From a virus, in the IMG/VR virus record IMGVR_UViG_3300046011_004380, positions 1 to 24,126 of that record: a DNA stretch of 24,126 nt, one strand, 5' to 3'. The notes below the pieces were generated by a model, which saw only the letters and a list, made by a program, of their open reading frames with translations, did not search any database and was not told where the DNA came from. The position numbers and the translations under genes are program-made. This document shows, in pieces, positions 1 through 18,200 of the stretch (the stretch's first letter is position 1; the number at the start of each line of letters is the position of its first letter).

Positions 1-11
1 GAGAGAATTAA
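1..11 (+). CDS. possible 3' end of an upstream gene
   Basis: The first eleven bases can be read as two codons and a TAA stop at 9-11 that shares its last A with the ATG of the GroES-like gene (TAATG). The same stop/start arrangement recurs at 3826 and 4654, so an upstream coding sequence ending here is plausible. Nothing can be said about its product. Confidence 0.3.
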
Positions 12-274
12 TGAAGGCAATAGGTAATAATATAGTTATTTTGCCTAAGAAGGTAGAAGCTACAAAGAAAACAAAAGACGGTCTTATTTTAAAAGAAAAA
101 GATAGTGAAGATATTAGATATAAAGAAGCAATAATTGTATCGATCAGCGATGAAATAAAAGTCATTAAAGAAGGTGACGAAATATATTATGATAAACACG
201 CTGGCCATACTATTGAATTTGAAGGTAATAAATATACAGTTATAAAACTACAAGATATAGTTGTTGTATTATGA
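11..274 (+). CDS. groES-like: GroES-like co-chaperonin (Cpn10)
   Basis: This 87-residue protein has the layout of the Cpn10/GroES family, slightly shorter than the usual 95-100 residues. It opens with the first core strand (GNNIVILPKK, residues 5-14). A Lys/Glu-rich mobile loop follows, carrying Gly-Leu-Ile-Leu at 24-27, which corresponds to the Gly-Ile-Val-Leu segment of bacterial GroES that docks on the GroEL apical domain. After the strand RYKEAIIVSI come the conserved KEGDEIYYDKHAG segment and the closing strand ending DIVVVL. The family caps GroEL as a heptamer; phage versions such as T4 gp31 redirect host GroEL towards capsid protein. It starts on a TAATG overlap and its last four bases overlap the next gene (ATGA). 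A second, double-domain Cpn10-like gene lies at 3826-4443. The fold assignment is strong; the specific client is inference. Confidence 0.9.
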   Translation: MKAIGNNIVILPKKVEATKKTKDGLILKEKDSEDIRYKEAIIVSISDEIKVIKEGDEIYYDKHAGHTIEFEGNKYTVIKLQDIVVVL

Positions 275-3247: not shown

Positions 3248-3320
3248 AGCAGGTGGGAGGTAAGGTATCTCACGGGTCTCATAAGCCCGCTTAAACTGGT
3301 TCGACTCCAGTACGTTGCTA
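3248..3320 (+). tRNA. tRNA-Met-like gene, anticodon CAT, irregular acceptor stem
   Basis: The anticodon arm is 3273-3289: CGGGT pairs with GCCCG (one T-G wobble) around the loop CTCATAA, giving anticodon CAT at 3280-3282. The T arm is 3295-3311: ACTGG pairs with CCAGT around TTCGACT. The D arm is 3257-3271: GAGG with TCTC around TAAGGTA. The variable loop is five bases. The acceptor can be drawn as AGCAGGT (3248-3254) with 3312-3319, seven pairs including one G-T wobble and a bulged G at 3314. Positions 8-9 are then GG rather than the usual T8. CTA follows the discriminator A, so CCA is not encoded. It could be an elongator Met tRNA, an Ile tRNA needing lysidine, or a decayed tRNA kept as a processing element. 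Confidence 0.75.
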
Positions 3321-3348: not shown

Positions 3349-3606
3349 ATGAAAAAAGTGGAAACAAAAACTATTAAGAAAGATCAATTAGAAAAAATCG
3401 TTGCTCAACAAAAAGACTTAAACGTATTGTTAACGAACATTGGTGTTCTAGAAACACAAAAGCATTCGTTATTACATCAGGTTGCTGAAGTCAACAAAGA
3501 AGTTGAGGATTTTAAATCAGAATTGGAATCTGAATATGGTGCTATTAATATTAACCTAGAAGACGGTAGTTATACTGAAATCGAAAAGGAAGAAAGTAAT
3601 GGCTAA
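3349..3606 (+). CDS. small coiled-coil protein
   Basis: An 85-residue, highly charged protein. Residues about 10-65 form one long heptad-like helix (KKDQLEKIVAQQKDLNVLL, then QKHSLLHQVAEVNKEVEDF) with hydrophobic residues spaced for a coiled coil. It ends in a short acidic tail (DGSYTEIEKEESNG). No enzyme motif is present. Its last eight bases overlap the next gene, so it is translated in the same block as the Cpn10-like and terminase genes. Small coiled-coil proteins at this position may be scaffolding aids or adaptors, but I do not recognise this one. Confidence 0.65.
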   Translation: MKKVETKTIKKDQLEKIVAQQKDLNVLLTNIGVLETQKHSLLHQVAEVNKEVEDFKSELESEYGAININLEDGSYTEIEKEESNG

Positions 3607-3826
3607 TGTCATTAGAAAAATAAGTATTGGGGCTGACTATAAGAATGAAGCAATGCACTATTCAGTACATCAAGAAGTATACGGGGGACATAAAATCTCC
3701 CATATACTATTTGAGGAAGCGGATAATTCATACAATATTTATATAAAGAAAAGCGATGAGGTTATGCCGTGGAAGAAATTTAACAGTCACATGGCTATTT
3801 CAGTGGAATATGATTTAGAATACTAA
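3599..3826 (+). CDS. small conserved-looking hypothetical protein
   Basis: A 75-residue protein that starts eight bases before the stop of the coiled-coil gene and whose TAA shares a base with the next ATG (TAATG at 3824-3828). It appears to be one compact beta-rich domain: ISIGADYKNEAMHYSVHQEV, a turn GGHKISHILFEE, strands YNIYIKKSDEVMPWKKF and ISVEYDLEY. The pattern of His, Trp and Tyr at strand ends suggests a real globular fold. I recall similar short proteins near the terminase of uncultured marine phages, but no function is known to me. Confidence 0.65.
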   Translation: MANVIRKISIGADYKNEAMHYSVHQEVYGGHKISHILFEEADNSYNIYIKKSDEVMPWKKFNSHMAISVEYDLEY

Positions 3827-4443
3827 TGAGAAGTGCATTTAGCTTTATTGTTAAACCTGTAGGTAACAGATACGACAATACAGTTAAAGTTGGTGATAAA
3901 GATTTAGTTGTTAACACATCGATTGAATCTTTTAAAGCTGTTAATAATATGGCTGAAGTTTTAGCTGTACCCTTATTTGGAACAACTGATATTAAAGTTG
4001 GAGACAAAGTAATAATACATCATAATGTTTTTAGAAGATTTTATGATATAAAGGGTAAACCAAAGAACAGTAGATCATACTTTGACGAAGACAAGTATTT
4101 TGTAGATTTTGATCAGATATATTTATATGGTGATGTTGGTAATTGGAAAGCTTTTGGCGACCGTTGCTTTATACAACCAATAAAAAATAATAACAGTTTT
4201 AGCTTAGAAAAAGAGCAAAGACTTATTGGAATACTAAAATATGGTAATAGCTCCTTAAATGAAGTGAAAATAGTACCAGGTGACTTAGTAGGATATAAAC
4301 CATACGGGGAATTTGAATTTATTATAGAAGGTAAACGATTATACTGTATGAAATCAAATGATATTGTAATTAAATATGAATATAGAGGAGACGAAGCAGA
4401 ATATAATCCAAGCTGGACACAAAGCGGTATTGGAGTTAATTAA
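3826..4443 (+). CDS. tandem two-domain Cpn10/GroES-like protein
   Basis: This 205-residue protein reads as two Cpn10-like halves. The first (about 5-105) has the opening strand FSFIVKPVGN, a loop KVGDKDLVVN that could be the mobile loop, AEVLAVPLFGTTDIKVGDKV with the family's conserved VGDxV step, and a closing strand after a long roof insertion (HHNVFRRFYDIKGKP to YFVDFDQIYLY). The second (about 106-185) repeats the order: FGDRCFIQPIKNNN, a loop, RLIGILKYGNS, VKIVPGDLVGYKPYGEFEF, and KRLYCMKSNDIVIKY, closely resembling the C-terminal end of GroES. A 20-residue tail follows. Tandem Cpn10 fusions are known from plant chloroplast Cpn20. It starts by TAATG coupling and its 3' end overlaps the candidate small terminase by 68 bases. 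Repurposing as a structural protein is an alternative. Confidence 0.7.
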   Translation: MRSAFSFIVKPVGNRYDNTVKVGDKDLVVNTSIESFKAVNNMAEVLAVPLFGTTDIKVGDKVIIHHNVFRRFYDIKGKPKNSRSYFDEDKYFVDFDQIYLYGDVGNWKAFGDRCFIQPIKNNNSFSLEKEQRLIGILKYGNSSLNEVKIVPGDLVGYKPYGEFEFIIEGKRLYCMKSNDIVIKYEYRGDEAEYNPSWTQSGIGVN

Positions 4444-4654
4444 GGTTGCTGAAGAAGCTATCTTAGATAATGGGGAAGATGACTTAGCCGCAGATAAATT
4501 AAAAAATGCCGCAGCAACAAAAAAGTTAGCTATCTTCGATGCATTCGAGATACTTAGTCGTATTGAAGAAGAAAGACAAAAATTAGATGCTCAAGATGCG
4601 AGCGAAAAAGCAAGCAAAGTTTTTAAAGGGTTTGCGGAAGGGAGATCTAAATAA
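4376..4654 (+). CDS. terS-like: small terminase subunit candidate
   Basis: A 92-residue, all-helical, charged protein directly upstream of the large terminase, with which it shares one base (TAATG at 4652-4656). The first 30 residues form an amphipathic helix (ETKQNIIQAGHKAVLELIKV). A second helix contains ADKLKNAAATKKLAIFDAFE, and a third has ILSRIEEERQKLDAQDASEK. Position, size and helical content suit a TerS, which recognises phage DNA and regulates TerL, but no clear helix-turn-helix is visible. Its first 68 bases lie inside the 3' end of the tandem Cpn10-like gene in another frame, an unusually long overlap. The start at 4376 is the only one that keeps the N-terminal helix; a shorter protein from a later start cannot be excluded. 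Confidence 0.55.
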   Translation: MNIEETKQNIIQAGHKAVLELIKVAEEAILDNGEDDLAADKLKNAAATKKLAIFDAFEILSRIEEERQKLDAQDASEKASKVFKGFAEGRSK

Positions 4655-6876
4655 TGTACGAACAAAATTTAATAACCACATTAACTGACTATATTAAACC
4701 AACTATTATAAGTAGGCTTAATAAAAGCAAGAAGTGGGAATACGGATATAATAAAGATCATGATGTAATTGTTATAAGCAAAACAGGTAAGATTGGAGAA
4801 ATTGTAGAAATACAAAATTTAAAGATTGCATTACCTTATATTGAAAACGCTTACAAAAGATCTAATAAGAAGGAAGAACAATATTGGGAACAAGCTAAAT
4901 ATCCAAAAGAGCTTGAGCGTATCAAAAGCGTATTTGACTGGAATAAATATCCAGATAAATTTAAAGAAAATTGGTATGACTTTATTGATGCAGAATTCAA
5001 ATACAGAGAAGAAGGTTTTTCTTTTTACAACAATGGCGTACCTACTTATATAACTGGTACACATTATATGTATTTACAATGGAGCAAGATTGACGTTGGT
5101 GCTCCGGATTTTCGTGAATCTAACAGAGTGTTCTTTATATTTTGGGAAGCTTGTAAAGCAGATAATAGATGTTATGGTATGTGCTATTTAAAGAATAGAC
5201 GTTCAGGATTTTCATTTATGTCTTCTGCTGAATTAGTTAACCAAGCTACATTAAGTTCTGACACAAGATATGGAATACTATCGAAGTCAGGAGCCGATGC
5301 AAAGAAAATGTTTACGGATAAGGTTGTACCTATATCAATAAACTATCCTTTTTTCTTTAAACCAATTCAAGATGGTATGGACCGTCCGAAAACTGAATTA
5401 GCTTATAGAATACCTGCATCAAAATTAACAAGAAGAAAATTAGATGCTCAAGAGCAATTAGAAGAGCTTGAAGGATTAGATACTACGATTGACTGGAAGA
5501 ATACTGGAGACAATAGCTATGATGGTGAAAAGTTAAGATTATTAGTTCATGATGAAAGTGGTAAATGGGAAAAACCGGATAACATTCTAAATAACTGGCG
5601 AGTTACAAAAACGTGTGTTAGATTAGGTAGTAAGATCGTAGGTAAATGTATGATGGGATCTACTTCTAACGCTTTAGATAAAGGAGGAGAAAACTTTAAG
5701 AAATTATATTATAGTTCAGATGTAACTAAGCGTAACCGTAATGGTCAAACAAGTTCTGGATTATATTCTTTATTTATACCAATGGAATGGAACTTTGAAG
5801 GTTTTATAGATAAGTTTGGTATGCCTGTTTTCTTAACTCCAGAGCAGCCTATTAAAGGAGCAGATGATATGTGGATTGATTATGGGGTTATTGAGCATTG
5901 GCAAAATGAAGTTGATGGTTTAAAATCAGATCAAGATGCATTAAACGAATACTACAGACAGTTTCCAAGAACCGAGCAACATGCTTTTAGAGATGAAGCA
6001 AAGCAATCTTTATTTAATCTTTCAAAAATATACGAACAAATAGATTATAATGATGATTTAAGAAACTCAAATGTTTTAACCCAAGGAAGTTTTCAATGGG
6101 AGAACGGTGTGCAAGACAGCAAAGTGATGTTTGTACCAAATAAAGACGGTAGATTTTTAATTTCTTGGATTCCTCCGCTAAATCTTCAAAATCGTGTGAT
6201 TATAAAGAATGGGGTTAAATACCCAGGTAACGAACATTGCGGTGCTTTTGGTTGTGATAGTTACGATATATCAGGAACAGTTGATGAAAGTAGAGGCTCT
6301 AAAGGAGCTTTACACGGATTAACAAAGTTTTCAATGGAAGATGTTCCACCTAGTCATTTCTTTTTAGAATATATAGCTAGGCCTCAAACAGCTGAGATAT
6401 TCTTTGAAGATGTTTTAATGGCTTTGGTATTTTATGGAATGCCAATATTAGCAGAGAATAACAAACCTAGATTGCTTTACTACTTAAAAAGAAGAGGATA
6501 TAGAGGTTATTCAATGAACAGACCGGATAAGATATGGAATAAGTTATCACCAGCAGAAAAAGAAATTGGTGGTATACCTTCAGCTTCACAAGATATGTTA
6601 CAAGCTCATGCAGCAGCTATTGAATCCTACATCGACAAATATGTGGGTTTATTAGAAAGAGGTTACGGTGATATGTATTTTCAAAAAACTTTGAATGACT
6701 GGTCTAGATTTAATATAAATAATAGAACTAAGCATGATGCTACTATTAGTTCAGGTTTAGCTATAATGGCTTGCAACAAAAACGCTTACACACCTGTATT
6801 TCACGCTCCAAAAGAGACCGTGTCTTTAGGTTTTAAAAAATATAATAACGAAGGTTTTAGTTCAAAAATAATATAA
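4654..6876 (+). CDS. terL: terminase large subunit
   Basis: A 740-residue DNA-packaging motor with ATPase and nuclease halves. The Walker A-type loop is KNRRSGFS at residues 180-187, the Arg/Lys-rich form usual in terminases. Walker B is LLVHDE at 296-301, with the catalytic Glu301. The coupling motif is MGSTSN, within the segment CMMGSTSNALDKGG. The RNase H-like nuclease half has Asp535 and Asp538 in GCDSYDI, a central segment with FYGMPILAENNKP, and Asp695 in KHDATISSG near the C-terminus. At 740 residues it is longer than typical terminases (450-600), the extra length lying mainly before Walker A, as in several groups of Bacteroidota phages. It binds the portal, encoded three bases downstream, and translocates DNA into the prohead. 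Confidence 0.95.
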   Translation: MYEQNLITTLTDYIKPTIISRLNKSKKWEYGYNKDHDVIVISKTGKIGEIVEIQNLKIALPYIENAYKRSNKKEEQYWEQAKYPKELERIKSVFDWNKYPDKFKENWYDFIDAEFKYREEGFSFYNNGVPTYITGTHYMYLQWSKIDVGAPDFRESNRVFFIFWEACKADNRCYGMCYLKNRRSGFSFMSSAELVNQATLSSDTRYGILSKSGADAKKMFTDKVVPISINYPFFFKPIQDGMDRPKTELAYRIPASKLTRRKLDAQEQLEELEGLDTTIDWKNTGDNSYDGEKLRLLVHDESGKWEKPDNILNNWRVTKTCVRLGSKIVGKCMMGSTSNALDKGGENFKKLYYSSDVTKRNRNGQTSSGLYSLFIPMEWNFEGFIDKFGMPVFLTPEQPIKGADDMWIDYGVIEHWQNEVDGLKSDQDALNEYYRQFPRTEQHAFRDEAKQSLFNLSKIYEQIDYNDDLRNSNVLTQGSFQWENGVQDSKVMFVPNKDGRFLISWIPPLNLQNRVIIKNGVKYPGNEHCGAFGCDSYDISGTVDESRGSKGALHGLTKFSMEDVPPSHFFLEYIARPQTAEIFFEDVLMALVFYGMPILAENNKPRLLYYLKRRGYRGYSMNRPDKIWNKLSPAEKEIGGIPSASQDMLQAHAAAIESYIDKYVGLLERGYGDMYFQKTLNDWSRFNINNRTKHDATISSGLAIMACNKNAYTPVFHAPKETVSLGFKKYNNEGFSSKII

Positions 6877-6879
6877 TAG

Positions 6880-9297
6880 ATGGTTTATACTAATAATAAT
6901 AGTTCTTTTCCTAGTCAGGTAGTACCAGATTCAGAGAAACAAAGCTACGAGTACGGAGCTAAAGTAGGTAGAGCTATTGAAAACGAATGGTTTAGGGGTG
7001 ATAGAGTTGGTGGTGCTGGAAACAGATGGGGATCCAACTGGCAGAACTTCCACAGATTAAGATTATATGCTAGAGGAGAACAATCAGTTCAAAAGTATAA
7101 AGATGAATTATCAATCAATGGTGATCTATCTTATTTGAACCTTGACTGGAAACCTGTACCTGTTATACCTAAGTTTGTTGACATTGTTGTTAACGGTATA
7201 TCTAGCAAGAACTACGATATTAAAGCATACGCACAAGATCCCGATTCAATTAAAAAGAAAACAAATTATGCTTCCGCAATATTGGAAGATATGATGGCTA
7301 AAGATCTTTTAAATGAAATACAAGGAACATTAGGGGCAAATCTATATAACACTATGGATCCTGCTAATTTACCAGAAGATAAAGAAGAATTAGAAATTAG
7401 ACTTCAATTAAGTTATAAGCAAGAAATTGAAATAGCTGAAGAAGAAGTAATAAGTCAAATATTAGATAACAATAAATATCCGTTAATAAACAAAAGATTA
7501 AATTACGATTTAGTTGTTTTGGGTATTGCAGCAACAAAAACAAATTGGAACAAAGCAGAGGGAGTAACAATAGATTATGTTGATCCTGCTAACCTTGTTT
7601 ATTCTTACACAGAGGATCCCAACTTTGAGGATATATATTATGTTGGTGAAGTTAGATCTGTTACGTTAGAAGAGGTTAAAATGCAATTTCCACATTTAAC
7701 AAAAGCTGATTTAGAAGAGATTGAAAAATATCCAGGTGATGTAAATTATACACGTAACTATTACGGACAAGATTATGACACTTCTAATGTACAGGTATTG
7801 TATTTTGAATACAAAACATTTTCTAATCAAGTATTTAAAATTAAACAAACAGATGTTGGTTTAGAAAAAGCATTAGAAAAAACGGATGATTTTAATCCAC
7901 CAGAAAGCGATACATTTAGCAAAGTATCAAGAAGTATTGAAGTTTTATATTCAGGAGCAAAGATATTAGGTCACGAAAAAATGTTAGAATGGAAACTAGC
8001 AGAAAATATGACAAGACCATTTGCTGATACAACAAGAGTACAAATGAATTATGCTATTTGTGCACCAAGAATGTATAAAGGAAGAATTGAATCATTAGTA
8101 AGCCGTATAACAGGCTTTGCAGATATGATCCAGCTAACGCATTTAAAAATACAACAAGTATTAGCCAGATTAGTTCCGGATGGAGTATTTGTTGATGTTG
8201 ATGGTCTAGCTGAAGTTGATTTAGGTAATGGTACAAATTATAATCCAGCAGAAGCATTAAATATGTATTTCCAAACAGGTAGTATCGTTGGTAGATCAAT
8301 GACACAAGATGGAGATATGAACAGAGCTAAAATTCCAATACAAGAATTACAAACTTCATCTGGTAGTGGTAAGATACAATCATTGATACAAACATATCAA
8401 TATTACTTACAAATGATACGTGATGTAACCGGATTGAATGAAGCTAGAGATGCTAGTACACCAGATAGAGATGCTTTAGTTGGTTTACAAAAAATGGCAG
8501 CTGCAAATTCAAATACAGCAACAAGACACATATTACAATCTAGTTTATATTTAACTTTGCGTATATGTGAAAATATTTCAAGAAGAGTTGCTGATTCATT
8601 AAACTTCCCATTAACAGCAAGTTCATTAATGCAAAGTATATCGGTATCATCGGTAGAAACATTAAAGGAATTACAAAACTTGAACCTACATGATTTTGGT
8701 ATTTTCTTAGAATTAGAACCAGATGAAGAAGAACAAGCACAACTAGAACAAAATATACAAGTTGCTTTACAGTCAGGAGGTATTGACCTTGAAGACGCTA
8801 TTGACTTAAGGCAAATTAAAAATATTAAGTTAGCTAATCAATCTCTTAAATACAAGAGAAAGAAAAAGATGGAAAGAGATCAAGCCAATCAACAAGCTAA
8901 TATACAAGCACAAGCACAAGCGAATGCGGAATTAGCAGAAAAAACGGCGATGTCTGAAGTACAAAAGCAACAAGCAATTACGGAACAAAAGATTCAATTA
9001 GAAAAATCTAAGTTACAATTTGAGATTCAAAAGATGCAGCAGGAAGCATTGATAAAGAAACAATTGATGGCAGAAGAATTTAGTTATCAAATGCAATTAG
9101 CAGAAATGCAGGTTGCTCAAGCACAAGAAAAACTTAATAAAATGGAAGATCGTAAAGATCAAAGAACAAAGTTGCAAGCCACACAACAATCTGAATTGAT
9201 TGAACAAAGACAAAACAACACATTACCAAAAGATTTTGAATCAGCAGGATTTGACAATCTTGGGGGATTTGGTTTGGAGCAGTTCTCTCCTAAATAG
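6880..9297 (+). CDS. portal protein
   Basis: An 805-residue protein immediately after TerL, the normal place for the portal. The N-terminal part has WKPVPVIPKFVDIVVNGI and the mixed alpha/beta wing region; a stretch with RDVTGLNEARDASTPDRDAL resembles the stem/tunnel region seen in podovirus portals. The C-terminal part from about residue 640 is a long Gln/Glu/Lys-rich coiled coil (QQANIQAQAQANAELAEKTA, then EKSKLQFEIQKMQQEALIKK), as in portals with an extended barrel. It forms the dodecameric channel at the capsid vertex that TerL docks on and the connector proteins close. No protease or fusion domain is visible. It is separated from the scaffold-like gene by 31 bases that carry the conserved leader motif. 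Confidence 0.88.
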   Translation: MVYTNNNSSFPSQVVPDSEKQSYEYGAKVGRAIENEWFRGDRVGGAGNRWGSNWQNFHRLRLYARGEQSVQKYKDELSINGDLSYLNLDWKPVPVIPKFVDIVVNGISSKNYDIKAYAQDPDSIKKKTNYASAILEDMMAKDLLNEIQGTLGANLYNTMDPANLPEDKEELEIRLQLSYKQEIEIAEEEVISQILDNNKYPLINKRLNYDLVVLGIAATKTNWNKAEGVTIDYVDPANLVYSYTEDPNFEDIYYVGEVRSVTLEEVKMQFPHLTKADLEEIEKYPGDVNYTRNYYGQDYDTSNVQVLYFEYKTFSNQVFKIKQTDVGLEKALEKTDDFNPPESDTFSKVSRSIEVLYSGAKILGHEKMLEWKLAENMTRPFADTTRVQMNYAICAPRMYKGRIESLVSRITGFADMIQLTHLKIQQVLARLVPDGVFVDVDGLAEVDLGNGTNYNPAEALNMYFQTGSIVGRSMTQDGDMNRAKIPIQELQTSSGSGKIQSLIQTYQYYLQMIRDVTGLNEARDASTPDRDALVGLQKMAAANSNTATRHILQSSLYLTLRICENISRRVADSLNFPLTASSLMQSISVSSVETLKELQNLNLHDFGIFLELEPDEEEQAQLEQNIQVALQSGGIDLEDAIDLRQIKNIKLANQSLKYKRKKKMERDQANQQANIQAQAQANAELAEKTAMSEVQKQQAITEQKIQLEKSKLQFEIQKMQQEALIKKQLMAEEFSYQMQLAEMQVAQAQEKLNKMEDRKDQRTKLQATQQSELIEQRQNNTLPKDFESAGFDNLGGFGLEQFSPK

Positions 9298-13976: not shown

Positions 13977-15200
13977 ATGGCATTTCCAGATGGTGGTTTA
14001 ATTACCGAAACAAATAGACAATATTATGCTGGAGCGCAAGGTTTCCAAGTAGAAGATTTAGGTGGACAAACGGAATTTACATTCACTTTTGACACTGAAT
14101 TATTTTTAGGTAGCTGGGATCAAGATGATGCTGGTTATGCTTTAAATAATTTTAAATTATATACAAGTACAAACGGTATTGACTTTGTAGAATATTTATT
14201 AGAGTATAGGTTATTAAAAAACACAATAACATTTGATACAGCTGTTCCGTATGGTCATGTAGTAGTTGTTCAACTTAAATCAGTTGAAGGTGGTAATTAT
14301 GGAGACTACGACGCTTATGGGAATGCCGTAGAGAACAATTACGGAGGTTATTCTTATATTACCTTAGATGATGTCATAAATAACTTTATTGTCGCTTACG
14401 TGGGTTCTGGTAAGCTTATATCAGATGTTAAAAGAACTGATGTATTATTTCACGCAAAACGTGGGCTGCAAGAATTTAGCTACGATGTACTAAAAAGCGT
14501 AAAATCTCAGGAACTTACAATACCTCCAAGCTTAAGTATCATATTACCACAAGATTATGTAAACTATGTTAAAATGTCCTGGATAGATAATCAAGGGATT
14601 AAGCATCCTATTTATCCAACATCGTTAACAATAGATCCTTCAGAAACACCATTACAAGATAATATAGGTCAACCAATACAAAGTAGTTATGATGATAACT
14701 TAGAGGGCTCTTCAATAACTGAAGAGAGATGGAAGAAAATGAACAATGGTAAATTACTAAACTATATTAATGGAGTTGGTAATAACGATGGATTTGGTAA
14801 TGGATGGAACAATGGTTATGATTATGGTTACTACGGTAGACGATATGGTATGGACCCACAATACGCAAACTACAACGGCACATTTACAATAAATGACAGA
14901 GAGGGTAAAATATCATTCTCAAGTAATTTAGTTGGTATGTTAATTGTATTTGAATACATATCCGACGGTTTAGCTTACGAATTAGATAGTAAGATACCTA
15001 AGATGGCAGAAGAAGCAATGTATGCACATATATTGCATTCAATAATATCTACAAGATCAAATCAACCTGAATATTTAGTACAACGTCTTAAAAGAGAAAG
15101 AAGTGCTAAATTAAGAAATGCTAAGATTAGATTATCTAATATTAAATTAGAAGAGTTTACACAGGTTATGAGAGGAAAATCAAAATGGATTAAACACTAA
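13977..15200 (+). CDS. head-tail connector / ring protein candidate (B)
   Basis: A 407-residue protein six bases after candidate A. Residues about 30-105 are a beta domain (FKLYTSTNGIDFVEYLLEYR, then TITFDTAVPYGHVVVVQLK) like the insert in candidate A. The core has a helical stretch (DDVINNFIVAYVGSGKLISD, then LFHAKRGLQEFSYDVLKSVK) and PPSLSIILPQDYVNYVKMSW, similar in outline to P22 gp4-type tail-accessory/ring proteins. A Gly/Asn/Tyr-rich loop follows at about 255-305 (GFGNGWNNGYDYGYYGRRYG), then LIVFEYISDGLAYEL and a C-terminal helix pair ending in a basic tail. It probably assembles as a ring beneath the portal. The similarity to known families is by pattern, not by search. Confidence 0.6.
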   Translation: MAFPDGGLITETNRQYYAGAQGFQVEDLGGQTEFTFTFDTELFLGSWDQDDAGYALNNFKLYTSTNGIDFVEYLLEYRLLKNTITFDTAVPYGHVVVVQLKSVEGGNYGDYDAYGNAVENNYGGYSYITLDDVINNFIVAYVGSGKLISDVKRTDVLFHAKRGLQEFSYDVLKSVKSQELTIPPSLSIILPQDYVNYVKMSWIDNQGIKHPIYPTSLTIDPSETPLQDNIGQPIQSSYDDNLEGSSITEERWKKMNNGKLLNYINGVGNNDGFGNGWNNGYDYGYYGRRYGMDPQYANYNGTFTINDREGKISFSSNLVGMLIVFEYISDGLAYELDSKIPKMAEEAMYAHILHSIISTRSNQPEYLVQRLKRERSAKLRNAKIRLSNIKLEEFTQVMRGKSKWIKH

Positions 15201-15206
15201 AATTAA

Positions 15207-18200
15207 ATGGCAGAAGTAAAAAATAGTTTCCTGAAGTCTAAGATGAATCAAGACTTAGACGATAGACTTATCCCTAATGGAGAATATAGATATGCAAATA
15301 ATATTTCGGTTGGTAAATCTGAGACAGATGACATTGGAGCATTAAAGAATGTTTTAGGTAATAATTTACTTACTTTAACTGATAACAACGAATTTTTACC
15401 AGGCACTACTACACCTAATCCTAATTATATACCAGGATTAGAGTGTATCGGTACGTTTATGGATAATCAAAATAACCGTATGTTTCAATTTTTAACAAAC
15501 TATACGGACCCAAATCCAAATCTAATAACTTTTCCAGAAGACGCTCCTTTTCCAAGTGGTATAACAGAATGGAAAATGAAAATTGCTGTATATGATTTTG
15601 ATTCACCTGAAACATATATTACATTAGTAGAAGGTACATTCTTAAATTTTGCAAAAAATAAAGAATTTAAAATAACAGGAGTTAATTTAGTAGAGGGTTT
15701 ATTATTCTGGACTGATAATAGAAATCAACCTAGAAAAATAAATGTTGCAAATGCTCTAACAAGCATAAATTATTACACAAATGAAACGCAAATATCTGTA
15801 GCAAAATATGCTCCTATTGATCCAATACTATTATATAGAAAAGCAACAGCTATTGCAGATGCGGATTCAGTTGGTAATGTAATTGAAATTGAAACAGAAA
15901 ATATTTCTATAGTTCCTGGAATGACATTAATAACAGACGGAATATCTGGTTCAGATTTTTGTACTGTTGTTGATGTCACTGGTACAACTATAACTTTTTA
16001 TGAAAACCTTCCTATAACAGTGGTAAGTGGTGCTCAATTAACTTTTTTAATTTCAACCATGTCCGACAAATCATCTGTGCCTACATGGCCTGGTGATCCC
16101 GCCTTCTTAGAAGATAAATATGTTCGTTTTAGTTATCGTTTTAAATATGATGACAACGAATATTCGTTAATGGCTCCATTTACACAAATAGCATATATAC
16201 CTAAACAGAAAGGATATTTTATTGCAGGTAATGAAACGGATGCTTATAGAAGTACTGTGTTAAACTGGTTTGAAAATAATGTAAATAACATTGAACTAGT
16301 GATCCCGTTTCCTGACAAAATAGGTAATCTTAATAATAGTTACAAGGTATCTGAGATTGATATTTTATACAAAGAATCAGATTCTACGGCAGTAAAAGTT
16401 TTTGAAACATTGCCAATAAGCGCTATAAATACCACTTTAAATACTAATAATAATTATTATATACAACCATACCAGTCGCAAAAGCCATATAAAACATTAC
16501 CAGAAGACCAAACAGTAAGAGTATATGACAAAGTGCCGGTAAGAGCAAAATCTCAAGAGTCAGCTGGTAATAGAATAATTTATGGGAATTACTATGATAA
16601 ATATACTTCATTGTCCTCTATAAATTATTATATATCCGTGCAACCAAAATCAACAAACGGAACAAACTTTATAGAATATCCAAATCATACATTAAAAAAG
16701 AATAGAAATTACCAAGTAGGTTTTGTAATATCTGATAAATTTGGTAGACAATCACCAGTTATTTTATCTTCAAGTGATTTGACTGGACTTAACATAGGTG
16801 GTGGTGAATTCGCAAAAGGATCAACAATTTATTCAAGTTACGAAAATTCTATTTTATTTGAAAATGTACGCGACTGGTTTGGAGATGCTTTAATATTATA
16901 TTTGAATAGCCCAATAGATCAAGAAAGAAATATACCTTCTGGTCAACCGGGGTTATATGCAATACCTACTTCAAATTCAGGGTTTGCAATTACCACTTCA
17001 ACAATAACTGATACAACATATACTTTCACTTTAGATCCACCAGTGCCTGGAGGAGCAGCAAATATTATACCTCTTCCAGGAGATATAATGAGAGGGTTTT
17101 ATACAGATTATGTAAAAGTAATTAGTGTGTCACCAACTCCAACGACTCCTTATTCAGGCTCTTATACAATAACTACAAGCGGTAGAGTCAATGATATATA
17201 TTTACATGTTGATCAAGAAGGAGGTGTTAAAGATATTAAATTTTCTTATAAATACAATCCTATTGGATGGTACTCATATAAAATAGTTGTTAAACAACAG
17301 GAACAGGATTATTACAACGTATACCTTCCAGGAATGTTAAATGGCTATCCTAAAAACCAAACTTCTGGGTCACAAGTTGTTTATTCAGGTGTTGGCCCAA
17401 CAGCTACGTCTACATTACAAAACGGTATAAATACTACACAGTTTCCTGTTAGTGAAACGGGTAATACATCTCACATTGTATTAATTAATGATAATATTAA
17501 TAAAGTACCAAGAGATTTGTCAGAAGTTGGTCCTGACCAAAAACAATATAGAAGTAGCGTACAATTATATGGTAGAGTAGAAAATACTAAGGCTACATTA
17601 GAAATAATAGGTGATGATCCTGATTATTCTGCTAAAGTAACAGTAATAAATTATACTGTTGGACCAGGCTTAAATGAAGATTGGGTATTAATAAAACCAG
17701 GAGACGGAATTCAATGCGTTGAAGCAAATACTCCTGTCACAAATACAGATCCATCCGCCACAGGAGGTACTATGCCTAATCCATATAGATGGTTAGGTAA
17801 TACAGTTGTTGTTAATAATGTTGTTTCTGGAACTACTGGAACTATAACAATATCATCACCTAACTGGGTATTAGGTGGGTCAACGGCACCTATACAATAT
17901 ACTCATTTTATAATAACGAGAGCAGAGAATGTACAGTATTTTCCAACAAGAAAGGCAGATACGGTTATATCTATTGCATCGGCGGATGAATTTAATTTTT
18001 TAGATAGTTCTGAAGATAATTTAAGTGGAACTGCTGGATTAAATTTTTATCAACTACAAACCAAACCTTTAATAGGTAGAGTTTCTACGGTTAATCAAAT
18101 TGGAGTTGTTGCTTCTGAAATGATACCTTTCTTAAGTGTATATGAAACAAGAGCTGAACAAAGTTTATTAGAATTATTTTGGGAAACCGCTACAACCGGT

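Follow-up and report, generated by a model that had tools for sequence, protein, structure and literature searches.

The window, by which we mean the whole stretch of 24,126 nt analysed here (IMG/VR virus record IMGVR_UViG_3300046011_004380, positions 1 to 24,126), carries the end of a chaperonin gene and two co-chaperonin genes ahead of a packaging and head block. The following features were assigned, each given with its basis:

1-27, plus strand: end of a phage GroEL, the final 8 codons and the stop (ERINEGNR, then stop), the remainder lying outside the window; from the translation and the GroEL C-termini of relatives.
11-274, plus strand: single-domain phage GroES (Cpn10), 87 aa, mobile loop KTKDGLILKEKD; Pfam Cpn10 match above the cut-off (E=1.1e-11) and PDB co-chaperonins (E down to 1e-6).
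3599-3826, plus strand: 75-aa protein without an assigned function, ending on the first base of the start codon of the next gene, which lies directly downstream; from the ORF list and neighbourhood counts.
3826-4443, plus strand: tandem (double) Cpn10-like co-chaperonin, 205 aa, ATG start; from the ORF, a PHROG match, AlphaFold2 and Foldseek.
3826-4137, plus strand: N-terminal Cpn10-like domain (residues 1-104), with an extra hairpin past the GD step and an HHN motif at 65-67; from the N-half model with Foldseek, conservation and a transitive profile match via phage phi18:3.
3874-3936, plus strand: mobile-loop-like segment of the N domain (residues 17-37), with a hydrophobic tripeptide at 27-29 (L/F-I-V/T/I/L); from low model confidence, conservation and the KTESGLEL segment of phi18:3.
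4138-4374, plus strand: C-terminal Cpn10-like domain (residues 105-183); from a Pfam Cpn10 match at 143-183 and profile comparison with the single GroES.
4186-4227, plus strand: shortened loop of the C domain (residues 121-134), without a conserved GroEL-binding tripeptide; from conservation.
4376-4654, plus strand: helical ORF of 92 aa that shares 68 nt with the tandem gene; a putative small terminase, from its position only.
4654-6876, plus strand: terminase large subunit (TerL); PHROG 6681, E=4e-165.
6880-9297, plus strand: portal protein; PHROG 6547, E=5.6e-147.

The first 27 bases were assigned to GroEL because they match the C-termini of the GroELs of relatives. In L005, for example, the tandem protein is 92% identical to that of the window, and GroEL lies immediately 5' of the single GroES. 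The GroELs of the relatives are 515-529 aa long, mostly end in LRINEGNR or a close variant, and occupy the same place, overlapping the single GroES, in which a GGLLL-type mobile loop is shared among the relatives. Judged from its sequence, the window thus contains a GroEL end, a GroES and the double protein. The first-pass annotation had recognised the single-domain GroES-like gene, which its Pfam match confirms, and had proposed a dedicated folding set; this set proved larger than claimed, since it includes a phage GroEL. The phage GroEL retains G86, D87, D52, T90, D398 and G415, so the ATPase residues are kept, whereas the apical face is altered in most members (L234 to Q, V263 to A, V264 to M), which is consistent with a specialised lid or client. 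The GroEL of phi38:1 has been detected by mass spectrometry both during infection and in virion preparations (PMC13288928). In one relative (L068 record, G007; 14706-16158), GroEL seems to be split into two pieces that both match, one of them interrupted by a stop codon, reflecting either an assembly error or a real break.

We addressed the nature of the 205-aa protein by profile searches and structure prediction. PHROG 13932, "co-chaperonin GroES", matched nearly its full length (residues 1-182 of 205, profile positions 1-197 of 200, E=4.7e-24). In Pfam, the match to Cpn10 (PF00166) was sub-threshold (18.4 bits against a curated cut-off of 21.1, E=0.0023) and was confined to the C half, at residues 143-183; however, the relatives phi18:3, phi38:1, L088 and L089 exceeded this cut-off, and a Pfam Cpn10 match at E<=1 was present in 63 of the 90 family members. 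With the window protein as lone query, phmmer found nothing useful in the PDB. The AlphaFold2 model, computed on an alignment of 90 related sequences, reached a pLDDT of 87.1 and a pTM of 0.80, and, the C-terminal tail aside, its confidence was lowest at residues 21-40, the expected place of the mobile loop. In Foldseek searches of the PDB, the best match of this model was the Cpn20 chain 7ekq_R, aligned over 205 columns across both halves (E=1.3e-5), and ranks 1-35 were co-chaperonins without exception. The N half modelled alone (pLDDT 88.9) matched GroES/Cpn10 structures throughout ranks 1-26 (probability 0.6-1.0), the best of them at a modest E=5.8e-3 with a probability of 1.00. These results indicated that, in the predicted structures, the ORF at 3826-4443 is made of two Cpn10-like domains in tandem. 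The protein of two Cpn10-like halves described in the first-pass annotation is therefore upheld by ORF, models and profile comparison; the separate N-half prediction yielded a Cpn10 barrel whose meaningful-score matches were solely GroES-type structures, and the reported VGD/PGD steps lie at 58-60 and 151-153, with G and D near-invariant. The outcome of the Cpn10 profile search itself was divided, with PHROG 13932 in favour and the window protein below the Pfam cut-off.

Profile comparisons with hhalign placed the two halves differently with respect to the phages' single GroES. The C half matched it at E=1.6e-6, whereas the direct match of the N half was weak (E=0.0016-0.0018), which counts against a role as a GroEL lid, the reading we develop below; the N-half score was 22.3, and 40 column shuffles gave at most 15.8. 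The N half was linked to Cpn10 through gp096 of Cellulophaga phage phi18:3, because this protein matches both sides: it aligned to the tandem family over its full length (E=7.6e-14; N half, E=8e-10), and its own N half aligned in register with the single GroES (E=2.8e-7), with KTESGLEL falling on the mobile loop. A recent internal duplication was considered as the source of the tandem, but the direct comparison of N and C halves was not significant (E=0.012), and therefore gave no sign of such an event. The halves are either old or were fused from different Cpn10s.

The loops of the two domains differ in conservation, as seen among 114 non-redundant family members. In GroES, the GroEL-binding tripeptide is IVL at 25-27. 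The corresponding tripeptide of the N half is hydrophobic in 100% of members at position 27, in 99% at position 28 and in 75% at position 29, although the usual GG immediately ahead of it is lacking, which counts against the lid reading. In the C half the loop is short and variable and no tripeptide is conserved, in agreement with the weak second mobile loop noticed in the first-pass annotation. Since the N-half loop of GroEL-binding type is so well conserved, at least half of the protein looks built for GroEL binding. The C-half loop has probably decayed, because phi18:3 gp096 has near-canonical loops in both halves. With this loop degenerate, double units alone could make fewer than seven contacts with GroEL, a further point against a lid function. 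Outside the loops, Y16, P49, H65, N67, G77, P118 and Y173 are among the invariant residues, and H66, F69 and W107 are present in 113 of the 114 members; the HHN motif at 65-67, Y16, G77 and W107 are not common to the phages' single Cpn10s. When aligned on the GD step to Escherichia coli GroES, HHN falls opposite N68-D69-G70, adjoining Y71, which we take to face the folding cavity; the motif would thus be placed beside a cavity-facing position.

Chloroplasts and apicoplasts also have double co-chaperonins, and how a seven-fold ring is capped there by chains that supply an even number of domains is a standing puzzle. The parallel with chloroplast Cpn20 drawn earlier was borne out by the best PDB match, and, as with Cpn20, two Cpn10 domains are arranged head to tail and coexist with single-domain Cpn10 partners. 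However, the phage protein shares only about 14% identity with Cpn20, its C-half loop is degenerate, and its N half carries the extra hairpin and HHN. Functional-looking mobile loops in both domains, the mark of Cpn20, are not seen in the clade of the window; a near-canonical pair was found solely in phi18:3. There is no sequence evidence for a common origin as a tandem, and the fusion was likely independent of the plastid one, the divergence being too large for a meaningful tree. Compared with bacterial GroES and the phage's single GroES, the protein shares a Cpn10 barrel per half, the GD step and the terminal strands, and differs in being a fused pair with one loop lost and in lying under the Pfam cut-off. 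Phage T4 gp31 is likewise a phage-encoded co-chaperonin without roof loops, but it is a single-domain heptamer that uses host GroEL, whereas the window protein is a two-domain chain; its structure (1g31) matched the full-length tandem model weakly (E=0.54).

The first-pass annotation had presented this arrangement as that of one phage, which understates its range. The IMG/VR scans each gave at least 587-599 confirmed relatives with the tandem gene, and more than 590 contigs encode it; it is also present in the isolates Cellulophaga phi38:1, phi40:1 and Calle, the Flavobacterium elemo phages and Maribacter phage Panino, and in the assembled genome MW202828. Matches in bacterial and archaeal metagenome-assembled genomes, many of which belong to Bacteroidota, were taken to be phage contigs that had been binned with them. 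The gene is carried by a widespread group of Bacteroidota-infecting phages, and "chaperonin cpn10" is listed among the core genes of the Pervagoviridae (PMC8776804). The PHROG 13932 members (phi38:1 gp089, "chaperonin cpn10" of Calle and elemo, Panino CDS0088) are full-length relatives at the same place before TerL and portal; their records name them GroES and leave two domains unmentioned, and the clade of the window differs from them by a C-terminal tail that overlaps the next gene. In phi18:3 (Pachyviridae), a homologous double protein is encoded at the corresponding site before TerL, and a single cpn10 lies apart from it; unlike the window phage, phi18:3 has no GroEL.

The neighbourhood of the gene is fixed. 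Among the matches listed, TerL lies downstream in 207 of the 207 loci with room, the portal gene follows TerL in 143/143, and the 75-aa gene is found upstream in 220 of the 222 relatives with room. The sharing of bases with the small terminase, reported earlier, is real as an overlap (4376-4443) and is conserved, an overlap of 44-92 nt being found in 103 of 221 relatives among the matches listed; the small-terminase label itself is positional, and the 92-aa ORF had no match in Pfam or PHROG. A conserved NPSW tail of the tandem protein is largely confined to the overlap clade, and the reading frame of the overlapping ORF may impose it. The ORF is missing in relatives in which TerL is longer by about 140 aa (L086, L002, L003, L088, L089). 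The N-terminal extension of the longer TerLs resembles the 92-aa ORF (hhalign E=2.5e-4), which suggests fusion or fission of a small-terminase-like domain with TerL. The tandem protein was itself considered as the small terminase, since its gene abuts TerL in phi38:1, elemo and Panino, and this candidate was set aside because TerL in these phages has the N-terminal extension that resembles the 92-aa ORF, a better fit to a small terminase.

This constant placement bears on whether the Cpn10 fold has been recruited for morphogenesis or packaging, for instance forming a ring or adaptor with the terminase or prohead and doing no GroEL work. Apart from the unbroken series of loci in which the gene precedes TerL and the putative small terminase, a second lid seems redundant beside the phage's own GroES, the conserved HHN, Y16, G77 and W107 set the family apart from single Cpn10s, and in Chlamydomonas a co-chaperonin heterotetramer containing Cpn20 caps the ClpP core and not only Cpn60 (PMC8889267; PDB 7ekq). 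We nevertheless consider this explanation unlikely: the tripeptide of the N loop is of GroEL-binding type and hydrophobic throughout the family, the loops of phi18:3 are near-canonical, the tandem gene tracks the single GroES in complete genomes, and phage Gundel has TerL and portal homologues without it. A structural part of the particle, such as a capsid decoration, plug or connector, would likewise suit a gene among head and packaging genes, and the Cpn10 barrel is compatible with oligomeric rings. This is the least supported of the rivals and appears very improbable. In the phi18:3 record (KC821620.1), many structural proteins were annotated from virion MS/MS, whereas gp096, as well as the single cpn10 gp080, was annotated from sequence similarity only; the phi38:1 record names the tandem co-chaperonin GroES and calls at least 11 other genes structural. 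This argument is drawn from record annotation rather than from the full peptide list, and it disfavours the capsid role that the first-pass annotation had entertained.

We then compared the occurrence of the tandem gene with that of GroEL and the single GroES. Among 27 long records, GroEL was found in 21, and a separate Cpn10 in the same 21. Loss of both genes was the first reading of the other six; these contigs extend no more than about 9 kb upstream of the tandem gene, compared with a spacing of up to 17 kb in relatives, and are therefore too short on this side to be informative. In complete genomes, the tandem gene is accompanied by a single Cpn10 in phi38:1, elemo, Panino, MW202828, phi18:3 and phi19:3, and the complete genome of Gundel, which keeps homologous TerL and portal genes, has neither. 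This co-occurrence spans few independent lineages, which counts against the lid reading. A tie of the tandem gene to phage GroEL was rejected, since phi18:3 and phi19:3 carry the tandem gene and no GroEL was found in their genomes. The double plus single Cpn10 without GroEL in these records (L305 and L308 for phi18:3, L307 for phi19:3) is the reverse of the usual expectation that a co-chaperonin comes with its chaperonin. Any action on GroEL in these two phages would be on that of the host, as it would be if the double lid displaced host GroES on host GroEL, favouring phage proteins or throttling host folding; T4 gp31, which folds the capsid protein gp23, does compete with GroES on host GroEL (PMC6318259). 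Diversion of the host chaperonin nonetheless seems improbable as the main role, because most relatives encode their own GroEL and the gene sits in the packaging and head block, not in a takeover block.

Thus, we proposed that the protein is a phage-specific, Cpn20-like double co-chaperonin, in which the N loop docks on GroEL and the C domain completes the lid, helping to fold head or packaging proteins; on the strength of the models, loop conservation and analogy, we hold this to be probable, though well short of firm. The flexible loop of the N domain, with its hydrophobic tripeptide, would dock on the apical domains of GroEL, be it that of the host or that of the phage, whose gene runs into the window from its 5' side, and the C domain, having lost most of its loop, would mainly complete the lid. 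The seven-fold ring might be capped by a tetramer or a trimer of the tandem protein, each leaving one position unmatched; Cpn20 homo-oligomers are functional although one position has no partner, and active mixed rings of Cpn20 and Cpn10 are formed as well (PMC5780408, PMC4242682). Alternatively, three double units and one single GroES would supply seven domains, as proposed for chloroplasts. This 3+1 mixed ring is attractive, because the single GroES steadily accompanies the tandem protein, but unproven. Late expression is suggested by the position of the gene in the packaging and head block. Made alongside the terminase, portal and capsid proteins, the tandem protein would help at least one of these products to fold, in the manner of gp31 for gp23. 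It counts against this proposal that nothing explains why a phage with both a GroEL and a GroES of its own should need a second lid. A second half acting as a ring-shaping adaptor, as the first-pass annotation had it, is possible. More speculatively, an asymmetric ring of three doubles and one single, with fewer GroEL contacts and a cage whose lining, through the invariant HHN patch, suits one particular head or packaging protein, would make a dedicated viral folding chamber that arose independently of Cpn20, a version that we regard as doubtful.

The family is already known in databases as "co-chaperonin GroES/cpn10" and as a Pervagoviridae core gene. What is new here is the Cpn20-like two-domain architecture, the conserved N-half loop against the degenerate C-half loop, the invariant HHN, and the finding that, in complete genomes, the tandem gene and the single GroES are either both present or both absent. 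Neither the two-domain, one-loop architecture nor the coupling to the single GroES was found in the searchable literature, a scope outside which most subscription journals lie, and the doubled, lopsided build appears to have gone unremarked so far. It would represent a second, apparently independent occurrence of a double co-chaperonin. The phages concerned are abundant; they also encode a single GroES and, in most cases, a GroEL of their own, which suggests that a full set of folding proteins for head assembly comes with the phage. Cellulophaga phi38:1 and phi18:3 and Flavobacterium elemo offer a compact, cultivable system for mixed rings and client-specific folding.

Two further elements lie between the single GroES and the tandem gene. 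A tRNA-like element with a CAU anticodon at 3249-3319 matched the Rfam tRNA model at E=0.001 (26.8 bits against a gathering score of 29) and was not called by ARAGORN; it is possibly a divergent or decaying tRNA-Met. At 1430-1741, a 103-aa protein with an HEKVH motif (HExxH) and a WEQEAY ending resembles a small zinc peptidase-like core, and its relatives retain the WE-EAY end.
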